Shown one piece after another: positions 11,601 through 46,712 of a DNA stretch of 53,964 nucleotides; the first letter of the stretch is position 1, and each line of letters opens with the position of its first letter. A program made the translations under genes and the position numbers. The notes under the pieces are model-generated. The model was not told the DNA's origin. It saw only the letters and a list, made by a program, of their open reading frames with translations, and did not search any database. Origin of the DNA: Candidatus Saccharimonadia bacterium (lineage in GTDB: Bacteria; Patescibacteriota; Saccharimonadia; Saccharimonadales; Saccharimonadaceae); assembly GCA_023257815.1 (NCBI GenBank), contig JALRBJ010000003.1, positions 1 to 53,964 of the forward strand, in the 5' to 3' direction.

Positions 11601-12473
11601 GGTCAAGCCTACATTAGCGAAGTAACCGGTCTTGTAGATGTATGGGAAGATGGCAGCAAATATGTGGTGCAAGTAACACCAGAGGCTGGTCATGTTGAGC
11701 GCTTGGCGCTTGAAGGACGTACGGTAAATATAAAGGCTGGATCAAATGTTAAGGCTGGTGATGTGCTAGCAACTACTGAAGGTGAAGCCAAGCCATTGGT
11801 TGCACCATTTGACGGTGTTGTAGAGATTGCTGAAGACACTATAGTGATTGCGGCTAATGCATCTGCACCTGTACGCTACGAAATCCCAGGCACTACTCAG
11901 ATTGTTGTTAAGGCTAACGACACAATTGAAGCCGGTGATCGTCTAACGATTGGTTCGCTGAACTTACACGACCTGATGCGTCTAAAGGGTGTTGAAGCAA
12001 CTCAGCGCTACATCATCAACGAAGTACTGCGTATCTATGCTGCACAAGGTCAGGATGTGGCTGACAAGCACCTAGAGATCATCGTTCGCCAGATGTTTAG
12101 TCGTGTACAAGTTGAGGATCCGGGTGACTCAAGCTTCGTTACCGGAGATATCGTATCGAAGGCCGCAGTTGTTGATGCTAATGCTGGTCTTGCTCAGGAA
12201 GGTAAGAGCCTTGTTCAATACACTCAGCTCTTACTCGGTATAACCAAGGTAAGCATCTGGAGTGATAGCTGGCTATCAGCTGCATCATTCCAAGATACTA
12301 CGCGAGTGCTTATCAATGCTGCGACAAGTGGACGAGCTGATCAACTTAACGGTCTTAAAGAGAACGTTATTATCGGTCGGAAGATTCCAGTTGGTACTGG
12401 TGTAAGCGAGTATAGTGAAAGTGATGAGGAGATTGAGGCTGAGATCTCTGAAGATCTTGAACTAGCGGCTTAA
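8640..12473 (+). CDS. rpoC: DNA-directed RNA polymerase subunit beta', lacking both usual zinc sites
   Basis: 1277 residues. The catalytic Mg-binding loop [12 protein letters not shown] is intact (about residue 517), as are the bridge/trigger regions, including [20 protein letters not shown]. The N-terminal zinc finger is not recognisable: after [10 protein letters not shown], where E. coli has ECLCGKYKR and CEKCGVE, this protein has [10 protein letters not shown] and IDKNGELVT. The second zinc site is lost too: [10 protein letters not shown] replaces the E. coli EDDCG (residue about 842), and [14 protein letters not shown] replaces CxxxxGVCxxCYG (about 911-924). The reading frame is clean, so this is real divergence rather than sequence error. 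A terminator follows. Confidence 0.99.
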
Positions 12474-12493
12474 TCAAGCACTCTTATCTCTAG

Positions 12494-12525
12494 AAAACGA
12501 CCGCATAGCCTAGCGGTCGTTTTTC
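12494..12525 (+). terminator. Intrinsic terminator of rpoBC
   Basis: AAAACGACCGC pairs with GCGGTCGTTTT across an 8-nt loop (ATAGCCTA), followed by T residues. Confidence 0.9.
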
Positions 12526-12618: not shown

Positions 12619-13251
12619 ATGCGTATAGCAAGAGTAGCGGGGTCTGCATTGTTGACTTTAGTTGCAGCAGTAGTGGTAGTAGGGGCGGCTCACGCTTCGC
12701 CACAAGGACAGCTGACACAATCGGTCACGCCAGGCACATTAACCACAGACATTCGAGATGGTTCTTATACAACGGTTGCATCACCAACGTTTGGTATGAG
12801 TACTTTGAATATCAGTAACGACTGTCAAACATCAACTGGTACATACGGAAGTGCTTCCCAGCGCATTTATGTAGACAACCCAGGAGGTGCCAATAACGGT
12901 TGGACATTAAGTATAGCTGCTACCGCAGGCGCATCGGCTAAATGGGTAAGTGGCGGTAATGACTATGACTTTGATGATCCCGCTGGCTCTGGCTGTACTA
13001 ATGGTCAATTAACACTTGATCCAAGTGTTGGAACGGTAACGGCTGATGCAGGTACGACCACTGCTATCACTAAAGGCTCATCAAGTGCCTTTAATAGTAA
13101 TAGCTCAACTACACTGTTAACTGCAGCTGCTGGTTCAGATGATATTTTTCGTGGTTACCTAACAGGTGTGGGTGTTTCTCAAAAAGTTCCTGCAAGCAAG
13201 CCTGCTGGTAGCTACGCTATCTCACTAACTCAGACTATCCTAGCTAACTAA
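12619..13251 (+). CDS. Secreted WxL-like domain protein 1
   Basis: 210 residues. An N-terminal signal peptide (about residues 1-27, ending AAHAS) is followed by a single all-beta domain. It carries GWTLSIAA, matching the first WxL motif of Firmicutes WxL domains, and ends with KPAGSYAISLTQTILAN, the position of the second motif (normally WTL), where the Trp is replaced. Two cysteines (NDCQTS and GSGCTNGQ) could form a disulfide. WxL domains bind peptidoglycan non-covalently. The next gene is a clear paralog and the fourth gene has the same domain at its C-terminus. The family assignment rests on motifs only; no search was run. Confidence 0.75.
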   Translation: MRIARVAGSALLTLVAAVVVVGAAHASPQGQLTQSVTPGTLTTDIRDGSYTTVASPTFGMSTLNISNDCQTSTGTYGSASQRIYVDNPGGANNGWTLSIAATAGASAKWVSGGNDYDFDDPAGSGCTNGQLTLDPSVGTVTADAGTTTAITKGSSSAFNSNSSTTLLTAAAGSDDIFRGYLTGVGVSQKVPASKPAGSYAISLTQTILAN

Positions 13252-13262
13252 CAGGTGACTAG

Positions 13263-13925
13263 ATGACACTTGTTAGTCACGGCACTGCTGCAAAACTGCG
13301 ACTACTTGGTCTTGGTATCGTAATATCACTCGTATCAGTGCTAGTGACTGGCAATTATACTGTGAACGCAGTTCCTGCTGGTACACTAAACCAGACGATA
13401 AACAGTAGTATTCTCTCGACCGATATCAAAGATGCCTTAAGCGTGAGCGTTCCGTCTCCTTCATTTACGCTCGGAGCCACGACGATTACAACCTACTGTC
13501 AAACAACAGACGGTATATACGGTAGCAACGCAGAGCGTATATACGTAGATAATCCTGGTATGGCAAATGATGGCTGGTCGCTAACAGTCGCCGCAACAGG
13601 CGGATCTGGAGCTAAGTGGACTGCTGGTGCACATAACTATGACTACGACGATCCAAGTGGAAGCGGTTGTACAAATGGACAGCTGAGTCTTGATCCCAGC
13701 GCTGCGACACTTACACTTGAAACGGGCGCGGCTACGGGTATTACACTTGGATCGGCAGACTCTTTCGTGAACGGCTCGTCGATTACCTTGCTTAACGGCG
13801 ATGCATCATCTGATAACTTCTGGAGAGGTTACTTGACAGGAATCGAATTATCACAGAAAATACCAGCAAGTACACCTGCTGGATCATACGTTCTTGATCT
13901 TACGCAGACCATTACAAACTTATAA
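13263..13925 (+). CDS. Secreted WxL-like domain protein 2
   Basis: 220 residues, paralogous to the preceding gene along its length: signal peptide or anchor (about residues 12-36), then the matching blocks YCQTTDGIYGSNAERIYVDN, DGWSLTVAATGGSG, GSGCTNGQLSLDPS and a C-terminal PAGSYVLDLTQTITNL. The WxL motif is WSL. It starts 11 bp after the previous stop, so the two are co-transcribed tandem duplicates. It probably sits on the cell wall together with the membrane protein encoded next. Confidence 0.75.
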   Translation: MTLVSHGTAAKLRLLGLGIVISLVSVLVTGNYTVNAVPAGTLNQTINSSILSTDIKDALSVSVPSPSFTLGATTITTYCQTTDGIYGSNAERIYVDNPGMANDGWSLTVAATGGSGAKWTAGAHNYDYDDPSGSGCTNGQLSLDPSAATLTLETGAATGITLGSADSFVNGSSITLLNGDASSDNFWRGYLTGIELSQKIPASTPAGSYVLDLTQTITNL

Positions 13926-13943
13926 CGCGGGGTTGCAACATCA

Positions 13944-15155
13944 GTGATACAACAACATAATCACAGCATTCAACGAAAGCCAAGCTTACTGGCTGCTGTA
14001 CTGGCAACTATGGCAGCTCTTTCACTCTCGCTCATTGCTACTTCTAGCAGCTTTGCACTCTCTGGCTCGATTGGAGGTAGGCCGGCCAATCCAGACGATA
14101 CAAATCAACGTACTCGCTCAATATTTGTTCATACGCTAAATCTGGGACAGTCTGTTGACGAAGGTGTGCGTATTATTAACAGTAGTAACACGACGCAATC
14201 AGCTAATGTGTACGCTGTTGATGCAACTGTCACGTCAACGGGATCATTAACGTGTAAGCAGCAAGTTGAAGGCAAGAAGGACGTCGGCTCGTGGGTTAAG
14301 CTAAATCAAGAGTCGATCACGCTTACTCCTGGTACTGATCAGATTATTCCGTTTACAATTACAGCTCCTTCAAAGGCTGATGTAGGTGAGCATAATGGAT
14401 GTATTGTCATTGAACCTGTGTCTGCTGACGTTGCGGCCGGTGAGGGCGGCGGTATTAGGATTAGAACCAGATCGGCGATTCGTGTTGCCGTAACAATACC
14501 TGGAGATCTAAAGAAAGAATTAACATTTGCAAAATTTAACGTTCACCCAGATAAAGGAAACTACTTCTACGATGTGGGTCTAAAAAACACAGGCAATGTA
14601 TCGATTGACGCGGATATCAGGGTTAAAATGACCTCTTTTGATGGGAAAGTTGTCTTTAATAACGGCGGCCAATATCCAGTTGTTTCAGAAACACAGCTTG
14701 ATCTAAGCTTTGTCGATGAACATCCACCACTTTTTGGTGGACTTTACTGGGTAGAGGCAACCGCAACATATGATGGCTCTACAAAAAATCAGATTGGTGT
14801 TCAGGCTAACACTCAACAAATCAAGAAAGAATGGGGTAGGCAGCTTGTGCTGATTGCTCCAACTATAAACGGAATGGCTATAATAGTGGGTATTCTTGGC
14901 CTACTTATCGGTGTACCATACTACTTTATTCGTCGCATCAAGCAGCGTAATCGAATGCTCCAGCGGGGAAGAGAGCACGTGGTCAATCCGGGTGAAACAC
15001 TTAAATCAATCGCAGAACATTACGAGGTTACATGGAAGACCTTAGCAACCTTGAATAAACTCAAAGCTCCGTATGAAGTTAGATTAGGCTCATCACTGGT
15101 TATTCCTGAGAAGCAAGCTAAAAAGGGAAAACCTAAATCACCTAAGAAGGGGTAA
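13944..15155 (+). CDS. DUF916/DUF3324-like (WxL-interacting protein-like) membrane protein with C-terminal LysM domain
   Basis: 403 residues, GTG start. Signal peptide about residues 15-40; then a beta domain with the DUF916-like pattern of sequestered-cysteine, PGT- and N-rich strands (about 45-170), a second beta domain with DVGLKNTGNVSIDADIRV (about 170-290), a transmembrane helix (about 304-327), a basic stretch RRIKQRNRMLQRGRE and a LysM domain (HVVNPGETLKSIAEHYEV to GSSLVIP, about 347-390). The two beta domains plus helix match the architecture of Firmicutes WxL-interacting proteins, which partner WxL proteins encoded beside them, as here. Odd: by the positive-inside rule the LysM domain lies in the cytoplasm. 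Confidence 0.72.
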   Translation: MIQQHNHSIQRKPSLLAAVLATMAALSLSLIATSSSFALSGSIGGRPANPDDTNQRTRSIFVHTLNLGQSVDEGVRIINSSNTTQSANVYAVDATVTSTGSLTCKQQVEGKKDVGSWVKLNQESITLTPGTDQIIPFTITAPSKADVGEHNGCIVIEPVSADVAAGEGGGIRIRTRSAIRVAVTIPGDLKKELTFAKFNVHPDKGNYFYDVGLKNTGNVSIDADIRVKMTSFDGKVVFNNGGQYPVVSETQLDLSFVDEHPPLFGGLYWVEATATYDGSTKNQIGVQANTQQIKKEWGRQLVLIAPTINGMAIIVGILGLLIGVPYYFIRRIKQRNRMLQRGREHVVNPGETLKSIAEHYEVTWKTLATLNKLKAPYEVRLGSSLVIPEKQAKKGKPKSPKKG

Positions 15156-15160
15156 TACTC

Positions 15161-16867
15161 ATGCGGCGTCCTATCGGTGTCGTAGGTATGGTACTGCTAC
15201 TTGCCGCGGTGATTTCACTGTCCCTGAAGCCAGGTGATTCATCGGCCTCTACATCTACGATTGCTATAAAGCCAAACGGTACCGTAACTGGTGGATGGAC
15301 TGTTAACGGTACAGCGGACAACACCTGTACGGGTCATTGCATGTATGTCGATGAAGTGACCACGGGTAACGGTGACGGGAATACATCGTACTTATCGGCA
15401 ACCAGTGATACTGCAGCCGAAGAGTTTAACATGGGCGATATATCACAGGGGCAGACAATAACGAGTTTTAAGGTCTATATGTATGCTGAATGTGTGGCAG
15501 TAGCTTTTTTGGGTACTGGAGGATACATAGATATTGTTCCAAAGGTTCAGGGCGCGACGCTCGCGACATCAACGGCTACCATAGGTGGCTGCGGGGCTAG
15601 CACATGGGCATTGTCTAGCTACACCTACAATGGCACCTGGACACAGGCTGATATTAATAGCTTGACTTTGAATTTTAAGAAACGTACTAACGGTGGGATT
15701 GGTAACGCTAATATGGCAATATCGGCCGTTTATGTAGAGGTAACGGCGCGCGAACCTGATATTACCCAATCAACTGCAAGGGTATATAACAACGCAAACA
15801 CACTCGCTCCTGGTACTCCTTTAGCGGCGGCCAATGCCCAAGCTGATGTTCAGCGTGACGCAGCATTTCGCATAAGAACTGGTCTTGCGGTCAGTGACTT
15901 TAACTGGACAACAGGATCATGGGGAACGAGCACTCCTAATACGTATAAGCTACAATATGCTGCACGCTCTGCAGCGAGCTGTAGCGCTCAATCGTCCGGC
16001 TGGTCTGACGTGCAAGTGGCTTCTGGAAACATACGCTGGAATGACAATGCCGGTGTGTCTGATGGGGCAACCATCAGTTCAAATGCCAACGATCCTCCGG
16101 TAACAGGAACGGCGGTGTATGAAACGTATACAGATACTGCGTCAGCGTTCACAAACCCCACACAGGTTACAACAAGTAATACGGGTGTTTGGGATTTTTC
16201 ACTCAAGGATGTTTCATCGACATATGGCACGGTGTACTGTTTTCGAATTGTGAAGTCTGATGGCTCACTACTCGCGGGCTATACTAATTTCCCGTCTATA
16301 GTGGTAGTTGGAAGCTTAGATATAGATATAGTTAATTCAGGGGGAGCGACCGTAGCATCACCAAATATGCCCTTTAGCTCAGTCATTGTACAGCCTGATT
16401 GTCAGAATTCAACTGCAACACTTGGACTAGCATCACAGCTTATTAGAGTAACCAATAATATAGCAACCGCAGGGTGGACAGTGTCGATGGCGGCAGCTGA
16501 CGGGCCAACCGCCTATTGGACGAATGGCTCGAACGGTCAATATGATTATAATGACATTTCTGGTAGTCCAAGCGGGTGTACAGATGGTGGTGATGCTGAT
16601 CCTTATGCGGGCAAGCTAACGGTTAATCCTGCCACGGCAACTCTTACGCCACAGTCTGGGTGTAGCTCAACTGGAACATCACTAGGCTCATCATCCAGTT
16701 TTTCAGAGGGATCAGTTAATGCTATAACATTGTTTATGGCGTCGTCTGCTACGCCGCGTTTTTGCTATTTTTCAGTTACAGGCATAGGTTTAACTCAGCA
16801 AATTCCAACCTACAGGCCTGTTGGGAGTTATAATCTAAACTTTGCATTGACGGTACTTGCAACATGA
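15161..16867 (+). CDS. Large secreted protein with C-terminal WxL-like domain
   Basis: 568 residues after an AAGAAGGGG Shine-Dalgarno. Signal peptide about 1-30. The N-terminal part (about 35-195) is a Cys-containing beta-sandwich (GGWTVNGTADN, CTGHCMYVDE, IDIVPKVQG); the middle (about 200-385) looks like one or two beta domains; the C-terminal 180 residues repeat the WxL-like domain of the two small neighbours (TAGWTVSMAAADG, DYNDISGSPSGC, YRPVGSYNLNFALTVLAT). Probably the long surface component of the complex, with the N-terminal part exposed for binding. The binding target cannot be inferred. Overlaps the next gene by four bases. Confidence 0.68.
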   Translation: MRRPIGVVGMVLLLAAVISLSLKPGDSSASTSTIAIKPNGTVTGGWTVNGTADNTCTGHCMYVDEVTTGNGDGNTSYLSATSDTAAEEFNMGDISQGQTITSFKVYMYAECVAVAFLGTGGYIDIVPKVQGATLATSTATIGGCGASTWALSSYTYNGTWTQADINSLTLNFKKRTNGGIGNANMAISAVYVEVTAREPDITQSTARVYNNANTLAPGTPLAAANAQADVQRDAAFRIRTGLAVSDFNWTTGSWGTSTPNTYKLQYAARSAASCSAQSSGWSDVQVASGNIRWNDNAGVSDGATISSNANDPPVTGTAVYETYTDTASAFTNPTQVTTSNTGVWDFSLKDVSSTYGTVYCFRIVKSDGSLLAGYTNFPSIVVVGSLDIDIVNSGGATVASPNMPFSSVIVQPDCQNSTATLGLASQLIRVTNNIATAGWTVSMAAADGPTAYWTNGSNGQYDYNDISGSPSGCTDGGDADPYAGKLTVNPATATLTPQSGCSSTGTSLGSSSSFSEGSVNAITLFMASSATPRFCYFSVTGIGLTQQIPTYRPVGSYNLNFALTVLAT

Positions 16868-17334
16868 TGGCAAAAGTAGGAGTACTATTGGCATTTGCTA
16901 TGACAACACTGTGGGTACCCGTGGCTTCTGCTGAGCCAGTACACCAATGGATTGCGCCAGCTGAATGTGTTATTGATGCAGGCCTTGTAACTCAGTATAT
17001 CCTGACCGAACAGCAGTGTAATGCACTGCTTTACCCTCATTTGCCTGATCTTTCAGATTCAGGTGGCTCAAGTGGAGCAACCGCTTCTCAGATAAGATCA
17101 GGTGGTAGTTCTGGGAATGCGGTGCCGGTTGTTTTTTTGCCAGTTACTGCTACGCTGCCCAAGACTCAAATGAGCGCACTAGACATCCAGAGCCATACCA
17201 TAATCATTGATCATGCAAAGAAGCCACGCGACGGGATGCGAGCAATTCGATTGCTTTTGATTATTTACGGAATATTGTTCATATTGCTGATTGCACGGCG
17301 TGTACAACGATATCTTAAGGTGAATAAGACATAA
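16864..17334 (+). CDS. Small secreted, C-terminally anchored protein of the surface cluster
   Basis: 156 residues. Signal peptide about 1-24 (ending VASAEP), a Gly/Ser-rich spacer, and a C-terminal hydrophobic helix (about 129-146) followed by a basic tail RRVQRYLKVNKT. An LPKTQ sequence occurs 30-odd residues before the helix; it resembles a sortase motif, but the distance from the helix is not canonical, so the helix is more likely a simple membrane anchor. In Firmicutes Csc clusters a small LPXTG protein holds the equivalent place. Overlaps the upstream stop by four bases (ATGA), so translation is coupled. Confidence 0.65.
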   Translation: MMAKVGVLLAFAMTTLWVPVASAEPVHQWIAPAECVIDAGLVTQYILTEQQCNALLYPHLPDLSDSGGSSGATASQIRSGGSSGNAVPVVFLPVTATLPKTQMSALDIQSHTIIIDHAKKPRDGMRAIRLLLIIYGILFILLIARRVQRYLKVNKT

Positions 17335-17335
17335 C

Positions 17336-17364
17336 TAGACAATTATACTCAAAAATGCTACAAT
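17336..17364 (+). promoter_or_regulatory. Promoter of rpsL-rpsG
   Basis: TAGACA (17336-17341), 17 bp, TACAAT (17359-17364). It produces a leader of about 105 nt that ends in a good AAGGAG Shine-Dalgarno. Confidence 0.6.
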
Positions 17365-17478: not shown

Positions 17479-17892
17479 ATGCCAACGATTAATCAGTTGG
17501 TGCGTAAACCACGTAGGACTGCCACGAAGAAGTCAAAAAGTCCTGCGCTTGGAACTATCCATAACGCACTAAAAACAAGATATTACCAGCAAAATGCTCC
17601 ACTTATGCGTGGCGTATGTATCAAGGTAACTACTAAAACCCCTAAAAAGCCTAACTCGGCACTTCGTAAAGTTGCTCGTGTTCGTTTGACTAATAAACAA
17701 GAAGTCTGGGCGTACATTGGTGGTGAAGGTCATAACCTACAAGAACACGCCGTTGTACTTGTGCGCGGTGGTCGTGTGCCAGATCTTCCAGGTGTGCGCT
17801 ATCATATTGTTCGTGGTGCACTTGACCTCCAGGGTGTTGCTAAGCGCCAGCAGGGTCGTTCTAAGTATGGTAGCAAGAAGGAGACTAAGTAA
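17479..17892 (+). CDS. rpsL: 30S ribosomal protein S12
   Basis: 137 residues. Decoding-centre protein. [12 protein letters not shown], containing the lysine of the main streptomycin site (E. coli K42), is intact. The second site reads [13 protein letters not shown]: a proline replaces the nearly universal lysine (E. coli K87). The aspartate next to it, which is methylthiolated in E. coli, is kept. First gene of the str operon; its stop overlaps the rpsG start (TAATG). Confidence 0.99.
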
Positions 17893-34785: not shown

Positions 34786-34805
34786 CTACGTAGGTTTTGG
34801 GGGAT

Positions 34806-35405
34806 ATGACACAAGGTTACATCAGGCAGATTGGCAGCAGCCGCAAAAATATAACTGGCTTTACTATTGTTGAACTACTAATCGTTATTGTAGTAATAGC
34901 TATCTTGGCTGCAATAGTATTTGTTACATATATTGCTCTGCAAAACAGAGCCGAGAATGCAAATACGCTTTCGGGTGTTGAGCAATTTAGTAAAGCGGTG
35001 CAACTGTACAGAACGAATACAGGGAGTTATCCATTTATCGGCACTTATAGCAGCTTTACGTATGCGTGCGTAGCGGCTGTAGGCGACAGTTGTGGCAGGG
35101 TTGGCGGTGCGAATGATAGCTCGTGCGGAGGTATAGGCACCAGTACGGGTCAAGCTATTCTAGATACGCCTATTCGAACAGTAATTGCCCGAATGCCGAA
35201 TGTCAGTTCACAAGGCATACAATGCGAAAACAAAGTTGTAAAGGGTGCACTTTATTACATTTGGGGTGGTAGCGACCTCAACGGATATTTGTTGTATTAC
35301 CTTAAGGGTGACGTACCCTGCACAACACCAGGAGGCTCAAGTTTAGAGAGCCGGACATACTTCACGTCGGGCGCAACTCGCTGCGTAATTATATACGCGG
35401 GGTAG
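34806..35405 (+). CDS. Type IV pilin-like (pseudopilin) protein
   Basis: 199 residues from the ATG at 34806 with GGGGGA as ribosome site. Leader ending in G, then FTIVELLIVIVVIAILAAIV with Glu at +5. The head domain has at least seven cysteines and is Gly/Ser-rich. Clearly paralogous to the pilin at 1010-1564 in the leader, helix and ALQNRAENANT segment; the head domains differ. Lies between rpsJ and rplC. Confidence 0.85.
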   Translation: MTQGYIRQIGSSRKNITGFTIVELLIVIVVIAILAAIVFVTYIALQNRAENANTLSGVEQFSKAVQLYRTNTGSYPFIGTYSSFTYACVAAVGDSCGRVGGANDSSCGGIGTSTGQAILDTPIRTVIARMPNVSSQGIQCENKVVKGALYYIWGGSDLNGYLLYYLKGDVPCTTPGGSSLESRTYFTSGATRCVIIYAG

Positions 35406-46028: not shown

Positions 46029-46712
46029 ATGTCAGGGTTATCAATTGAGCAAAGACGTAATAACCATATAATTCGTTGGGTTCTTGCTTTGCTGCTAGTT
46101 GCCATTGGCGTAGCGTATGTCTACTTTGGCTTTAGATGGTATAACACAGGTGAACTTTCGCCGCTGCCACTCCCTGTTTCGGCTGCCGATTCATCGATTG
46201 ATGAGACACCCGTCTCTGATAAGCAAATTGATGAGTATAGTGTTCCTGCGAGTCAACCAAAATACATTGAAATACCAGCCATCAATATGCCAAAAGCACG
46301 CGTTACGCGCGTCGGTGTCACTGCACGCAACATGCTTGATGTACCTAAGAATATTGACGACACTGCATGGTATACAAAAAGTGCTGTTCCTGGTGCTGGT
46401 GTTGGTGCGGTTGTTATAGACGGACACAACGGTGGAGTAACCCGTAACGGTATATTTGCCAGACTAGGCAATCTAAAGGCAGGCGATCAGATATCAATTG
46501 AGCGTGGTGATAGTAAGGTGTTTACGTACAAAGTGTATGACGTTCGCGATATGCCGCTTCAACAGGTTAATCAGACTGGTATGAAAGAGATGATGATGTC
46601 GGCAGATCCTTCAAAAGAAGGTCTTAGCTTGATTACATGTAGCGGCAAATGGATACCTAAAGAAAAAGTCTTTGATAGACGAATTTTAGTAAGAGCTACT
46701 ATTATTGACTAG
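46029..46712 (+). CDS. Sortase
   Basis: 227 residues. One N-terminal membrane helix (about 16-36) anchors an extracellular sortase domain beginning near KYIEIPAINMPKARV. The catalytic residues are visible: His in VVIDGHNGG (about 132), Cys in SLITCSGKW (about 203) and Arg in DRRILVRA (about 217). It is closest by eye to class E/F-like sortases of actinobacteria. Substrates are unknown; the LPKTQ protein at 16864-17334 is one weak candidate. The next 200 bp hold a decayed second sortase. Confidence 0.85.
   Translation: MSGLSIEQRRNNHIIRWVLALLLVAIGVAYVYFGFRWYNTGELSPLPLPVSAADSSIDETPVSDKQIDEYSVPASQPKYIEIPAINMPKARVTRVGVTARNMLDVPKNIDDTAWYTKSAVPGAGVGAVVIDGHNGGVTRNGIFARLGNLKAGDQISIERGDSKVFTYKVYDVRDMPLQQVNQTGMKEMMMSADPSKEGLSLITCSGKWIPKEKVFDRRILVRATIID

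Follow-up and report, generated by a model that had tools for sequence, protein, structure and literature searches.

A Candidate WxL/WxLIP-Type Surface Complex with Divergent WxL-Like Domains in Saccharibacteria and Other Patescibacteria

Introduction

Nearly all descriptions of complexes between WxL-domain proteins and WxL-interacting proteins (WxLIPs) come from Lactobacillales and Bacillales. Small WxL domains reportedly fold differently from large ones (PMC9772566), and a hairpin of the Firmicutes WxLIP is predicted to insert a strand into the WxL domain that completes its beta-sandwich (PMC10599100). The location of the WxLIP transmembrane helix is disputed, being placed in the membrane of the producing cell in one proposal (Siezen 2006) and in that of the host in another (Hassan 2023). 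Here these systems are compared with five adjacent genes, P1 to P5, at positions 12619-17334 on the forward strand of contig JALRBJ010000003.1 (assembly GCA_023257815.1) from a Candidatus Saccharimonadia bacterium; the whole stretch analysed, 53,964 nucleotides long, is referred to as the window. A first-pass annotation, made from the letters alone, had proposed that these genes might encode a new surface complex similar to the WxL and Csc systems.

The source cell is an ultra-small, probably episymbiotic Saccharibacterium, with Saccharibacteria as its closest named relatives and an assembled genome of 860 kb that is split over 36 contigs. Apart from type IV pili, the attachment machinery of Patescibacteria is mostly unknown, and a form of the complex that recurs in this group would supply named candidate surface components. 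A literature search found no report that joins WxL with Saccharibacteria, most subscription journals lying outside the search; the pairing of WxL with Patescibacteria returned one unrelated paper only, and no description of WxL in Patescibacteria. The reading favoured here, which is considered likely, is that the operon makes a divergent, Patescibacteria-specific surface-display complex of the WxL/WxLIP type, which upholds the first-pass proposal in its main points.

The WxLIP Protein and Its LysM Tail

P3 (13944-15155, + strand; 403 amino acids from a GTG start) belongs to the WxLIP family, that is, the CscA or DUF916 type. It scores 30.3 bits against PF06030 (DUF916, PGBD), for which the Pfam cut-off is 27.3, and 40.7 bits against LysM, and its parts run from a signal through the PGBD and a second Ig-like domain to a transmembrane helix within about residues 308-341 and a C-terminal LysM at 345-388. 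An AlphaFold2 model built on a 29-row alignment (mean predicted local distance difference test score, pLDDT, 89.6) agrees with this layout: a signal helix is followed by two beta-domains, then by a long helix (308-341) and, at the end, by a small LysM fold. The earlier description of a WxL-interacting-type protein with two beta-domains and a helix thus holds, and the LysM tail is new to it. The three best fold matches of P3 in the PDB are Enterococcus faecium WxLIP structures, alone and in complex with a long WxL protein (9i25_C, 9i1y; E 3e-14 to 2e-13), and a P3 profile recovers the same WxLIP chain by sequence at E 5.5e-12. After the WxLIPs come two-Ig-domain proteins, including the pilus chaperones CfaA, CsuC and Caf1M. 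Residues about 160-176, which are modelled with low confidence, occupy the position of the disordered hairpin in Firmicutes WxLIPs. PF06030 is common in the phylum: 114 of the 380 Patescibacteria genomes scanned have a match at E 0.001, 56 of them above the cut-off, and many of the matching proteins are 300-370 amino acids long.

In the predicted topology of P3 the LysM lies on the cytoplasmic side of the producing cell's membrane, because the protein carries an N-terminal signal and a bias of positive charge after its helix. Summed over 50 P3 proteins, the net charge rises from +23 across the 15 residues that precede the helix to +220 across the 18 that follow it, and among relatives with a single transmembrane helix the charge after the helix exceeds that before it in 25 of 28. 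Three further relatives (L115, L123 and L125) have the order transmembrane helix, LysM, transmembrane helix, LytR_C, the last domain being confirmed by Pfam in L123. In LytR-type proteins the LytR_C domain lies on the outer side; if it does so in these relatives, their LysM lies inside. The tails of Firmicutes WxLIPs are likewise basic, but they end 7-20 residues after the helix. With regard to the disputed location of the WxLIP helix, both the LysM tail of P3 and its charge pattern speak for the producer's own membrane. Among proteins with a cytoplasmic LysM, the closest precedent that was found is SpoVID, whose LysM binds lipid II from within the mother cell (PMC10659427), and by analogy the ligand in P3 may be a lipid-linked peptidoglycan precursor.

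The WxL-Like Proteins

P1 (12619-13251, + strand; 210 amino acids) consists of a signal peptide and one beta-sandwich domain, and P2 (13263-13925, + strand; 220 amino acids) is a second small protein with 52% identity to it. P4 (15161-16867, + strand; 568 amino acids) is a large protein whose C-terminal domain (residues about 375-567) matches the P1 family and is about 40% identical to P2; the fold of its N-terminal part (about 30-380) was not recognised. This mutual identity makes the three domains one family rather than the product of a chance motif, in line with the earlier claim of two small and one large WxL-like proteins. P4 has a relative over its whole length (L097:10866-12575), to which its N-terminal 374 residues match at E 1.3e-84.

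The first-pass annotation had also described a retained first WxL motif, an altered second one and added disulfide cysteines, and each of these features recurs in the 63-row alignment of the P1 family from which the motif and cysteine counts are drawn. The first motif reads WTL in P1, WSL in P2 and WTV in P4, its tryptophan being kept in 60 of 63 relatives and followed at the third position by L in 46 and V in 11. At the second motif (LTQTI in P1 and P2, FALTV in P4) the tryptophan is found in none of the 63 and is nearly always replaced by L, V, I or Q. Cys42 and Cys99 of the mature numbering (C69 and C126 in P1) are both present in 41 relatives and both absent in 22; since the pair is always present or missing together, a C69-C126 disulfide is likely.

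Pfam and NCBIfam scans of P1, P2, P4 and P5 returned no matches, nor did a scan of P1, P4 and P5 against PHROGs, and a sequence search of the PDB with the P1 profile found no significant match. Iterated searches tie the P1 family to proteins that bear PF13731, the Pfam WxL family, through intermediates that match both profiles. When profiles were compared, the P1 family aligned with a Patescibacteria WxL set at 97.7% (E 2.5e-12, 156 columns), and that set aligned with Firmicutes WxL proteins from annotated plasmids at 98.1% (E 1.2e-13), with both W-x-L sites in register along the chain and an unrelated control at 0.4%. The chain is not circular, because its middle profile was picked by similarity to Firmicutes WxL and not to P1; it was used in place of a direct match to Firmicutes WxL, which is weak. 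PF13731 itself is matched in 15 of 380 Patescibacteria genomes, several times at loci of distant P3 relatives. P1, P2 and the C-terminus of P4 are probably homologous to WxL domains, as far as profile similarity can tell, and they are called WxL-like because this homology is probable whereas by sequence alone they would not be classed as WxL domains. With regard to the earlier suggestion of a separate family, no Pfam model detects these proteins, and the profile chain joins them to WxL domains of the PF13731 type.

The model of P1 (63-row alignment, pLDDT 92.9) resembles pilins, a likeness absent from the earlier description. Its best fold matches are self-complemented FimA (probability 1.00, E 9.6e-3), Csu pili and archaeal cannulae, with E-values that are modest and template modelling scores (TM-scores) of only about 0.5. 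FimA, Csu pili and archaeal cannulae polymerise through strand donation. Directly after the signal peptide, 27 of 43 small proteins have an F-x-Q-x-I-N-x-G strand that occurs in none of 28 large ones (Fisher p 9e-9, indicative only, as the sequences are related and the motif was picked after viewing). Together with the likeness of P3 to pilus chaperones, this anatomy suggests that P3, the small units and the large protein are linked by strand donation, and the FimA-like fold offers a testable assembly rule for WxL domains in general.

Linkage and Distribution

When 84,980 species genomes were scanned for the P1 family, 35 loci were recovered, a lower bound because the scan rests on a single conserved peptide pattern. 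Every locus with a stated lineage is from Patescibacteria, the lineages being Saccharibacteria, Microgenomates, Doudna-, Levy-, Kerfeld-, Falkow-, Moran-, Magasanik-, Gracili- and Parcubacteria. In 30 of the 35 loci a P3 gene adjoins the P1-like one, with every gene on the same strand, so that the co-occurrence expected by the first-pass annotation is found in other genomes; the five loci without P3 comprise two from Gracilibacteria and three that are truncated at a contig end. P3 and a large protein accompany the P1-like gene at 23 of 35 loci, and the common gene order is small, P3, large and then a small membrane-tethered protein.

The position of the cluster is not uniform, and a single position kept by descent was rejected. 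It occupies the slot between rpoC and rpsL in the window and in L140, lies directly after rpoC in L147 and is found near ftsZ in L035 and L141, whereas a genome of the same genus (G303) lacks it and holds unrelated open reading frames in its rpoC-rpsL slot. In the P3 tree most saccharibacterial proteins group together, that of the window in a six-row clade with support 100/99; because of this grouping, loss with occasional movement fits better than recent transfer into Saccharibacteria, which was likewise rejected. An accessory cluster that is mainly inherited and often lost fits best. Viral contigs held no relatives of the cluster that would point to a phage origin.

A second, different surface cluster is present in the same genome (L055; contig C36, 12692-17319), with genes for a small beta protein, a WxLIP-like protein, a signal/transmembrane protein, a large protein that bears a Laminin_G_3 lectin domain and a protein anchored by a transmembrane helix. 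Its WxLIP-like protein (308 amino acids) matches the P3-type profile (A3) at E 4e-29 and has no LysM. On a Clavibacter plasmid (L079:5110-6924) an unannotated small protein, found with the Patescibacteria WxL profile (E 5.5e-15), adjoins a DUF916 gene with GH43 genes next to it; Clavibacter belongs to Actinomycetota, the phylum that hosts cultivated Saccharibacteria.

Gene Organisation and P5

All five open reading frames of 12619-17334 lie on the + strand, as first described, and fill the slot between rpoC, which ends at 12473, and rpsL, which starts at 17479, a setting that the earlier description did not mention. A terminator-like hairpin (12493-12524, + strand; a 12-pair stem and a T tail) stands between rpoC and P1, and a promoter-like site of rpsL is found at 17336; because of these two features P1 to P5 look like a separate transcription unit. 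The hairpin has the longest stem in the region, yet the number of such matches there is near that expected by chance. Elsewhere in the window, the open reading frames 1010-1564 and 34797-35405 resemble prepilin-like proteins encoded near the L035 cluster.

P5 (16864-17334, + strand; 156 amino acids) is a small secreted protein with a signal, two conserved cysteines near the mature N-terminus and a C-terminal transmembrane helix, consistent with the small anchored protein first proposed, and it is without LPxTG. An LPKTQ stretch was rejected as a sortase site because no hydrophobic helix directly follows it; the genome has three sortase genes, one of them in the window (46266-46700, 63 bits). 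P5 is the least conserved part of the cluster. Relatives of it come after the large WxL-like gene in L097, L101, L116, L140 and L141 and after P3 in L109, and profile relatives after the large gene are found mainly in Saccharibacteria, other lineages carrying different partners in this place, including dockerin-like proteins. A protein with a dockerin-like C-terminus is present in six non-saccharibacterial loci (L111, L112, L119, L124, L130 and L131), alongside further signal/transmembrane proteins; in L124 (2491-3612) it scores 21.4 bits against PF00404, just below the cut-off.

Proposed Mechanism and Alternatives

In the favoured reading, all five proteins would be exported, with P3 held in the membrane of the producing cell. 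A hairpin in the first domain of P3 (about 160-177) would insert into a WxL-like domain and complete its beta-sandwich, in the manner predicted for Firmicutes, while P1 and P2 may coat the wall or bridge P3 and P4. The C-terminal WxL-like domain of P4 would keep the N-terminal domains pointing outward, where they would probably meet a host cell or substrate, P5 would be a further membrane-tethered partner, and the cytoplasmic LysM tail may bind a lipid-linked peptidoglycan precursor, thereby placing or regulating the complex where the wall grows. The family membership of P3, the gene linkage, the domain order, the predicted folds and the topology bias come directly from computation; a role in attachment to the host cell is a plausible hypothesis.

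Several observations weigh against this reading. PF13731 is not matched by P1, P2 or P4, nor anywhere in their own genome, and P3 has no Pfam match to DUF3324 (HBD) over its second Ig-like domain, although a second beta-domain is predicted there at about 193-304; of the families that the first-pass annotation had named for a search, only DUF916 was therefore found. The Asp/Arg pair that stabilises WxL domains before the first tryptophan is lost, a conserved Asn replacing the D-x-R, and the direct comparison of the P1 family with Firmicutes WxL reaches 9.7%. Of the structural comparisons it had called for, that of P3 returned WxLIPs as the best matches, whereas that of P1 returned FimA-type pilins, with the solved WxL chain 9i25_A outside the 50 best. 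The cluster is moreover sporadic, P3 being present in 9 of 61 genomes of the family (E 1e-15), so that it is accessory and cannot be required for episymbiotic life in general.

Some of these points would also be explained if P1, P2 and the P4 C-terminus were a generic secreted Ig-like or pilin fold that was independently paired with a WxLIP and is no kin of WxL. The unmatched Pfam family, the FimA-like best matches and the weak direct score agree with such an origin, but the strong profile chain, which in two steps keeps both W-x-L sites in alignment, the intermediates that match both profiles and the identical company of a WxLIP gene make it improbable. A refinement of the favoured reading, rather than its opposite, is a fimbria-like assembly without an usher, in which the small WxL-like proteins are pilin-like subunits that each complete the next one by donating an N-terminal strand, P4 is a tip adhesin with an acceptor groove only and P3 is both a membrane-held chaperone and the base. 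The fold matches of P1, the likeness of P3 to pilus chaperones, the N-terminal strand confined to small proteins and the WxLIP-to-WxL strand insertion predicted in Firmicutes all point in this direction. The account is nevertheless rather unlikely, given that the fold matches of P1 are modest, matches to two-Ig-domain proteins are common, only two small genes are present per operon, no usher (PF00577) is found in the genome, and no published report of a filament was found for WxL systems. It is quite unlikely, if more far-reaching, that WxL/WxLIP systems, and this one especially, are usher-less donor-strand assemblies of single-membrane cells, with small WxL domains as pilin-like units that hand an N-terminal strand to the next one, the large WxL protein as tip adhesin and the WxLIP as a chaperone and base in the membrane, which a cytoplasmic LysM ties to peptidoglycan synthesis.

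The function of the complex might alternatively be the binding of a substrate or polysaccharide for nutrient acquisition, as has been proposed for Lactobacillus Csc (PMC1534035), instead of host attachment. The Clavibacter DUF916 gene and its small WxL-type neighbour adjoin GH43 glycosyl hydrolases, and the large protein of the second cluster in the same genome has a Laminin_G/ConA-like domain; however, a Pfam scan detected no carbohydrate-binding or hydrolase domain in P4 or P5, and the operon is without degradation genes, which leaves this function doubtful. The published proposal for the Firmicutes WxLIP helix (PMC10599100), if applied to P3, would insert the helix in the host-cell membrane and bring the LysM tail into the host cytoplasm. 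This is highly improbable, as the signal peptide and the positive-inside charge pattern fit anchoring in the cell's own membrane, the relatives with LysM between two transmembrane helices argue likewise, and the tails of Firmicutes WxLIPs are basic too.

Comparison with Known Systems

Chaperone-usher pili (FimA/FimH/FimC and Csu) share with the divergent WxL/WxLIP-type complex favoured here a FimA-like fold of the small domain, a two-Ig-domain partner and a large, tip-like protein that lacks the additional N-terminal strand; they differ in having an usher, in that the present system belongs to a single-membrane cell, and in that sequence homology was not detected. Patescibacteria also have loci with a WxL protein of the PF13731 type (for example L051, L054 and L066), for which no published description was found. 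A WxLIP, in many cases with a transmembrane-LysM tail, lies beside the WxL gene in these loci, and their WxL domains keep the D-x-R...GW signature that the domains of the window type do not.

The WxL/WxLIP clusters of Enterococcus, Listeria and Lactobacillales (PMC10599100) resemble the locus in their compact layout on one strand, in their single WxLIP with PF06030, a transmembrane helix and the same fold, and in their small and large WxL proteins, the large one with a C-terminal WxL domain. Unlike these clusters, the locus belongs to Patescibacteria, the saccharibacterial P3 has a LysM tail after its transmembrane helix and no DUF3324 match, and the WxL-like domains of the window have a cysteine pair and lack the second tryptophan and the Asp/Arg pair. 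In terms of the Lactobacillus plantarum cscABCD genes (PMC1534035), CscA corresponds to P3, CscB to P1 and P2, CscC to P4 and the small anchored fourth protein to P5. If P1, P2 and P4 are counted as WxL, the composition is of the Csc type, with five adjacent genes whose order is kept in relatives. The Csc-like set first proposed is thus present, except that P5 is held by a transmembrane helix, with conserved cysteines, and not by LPxTG anchoring as in CscD.

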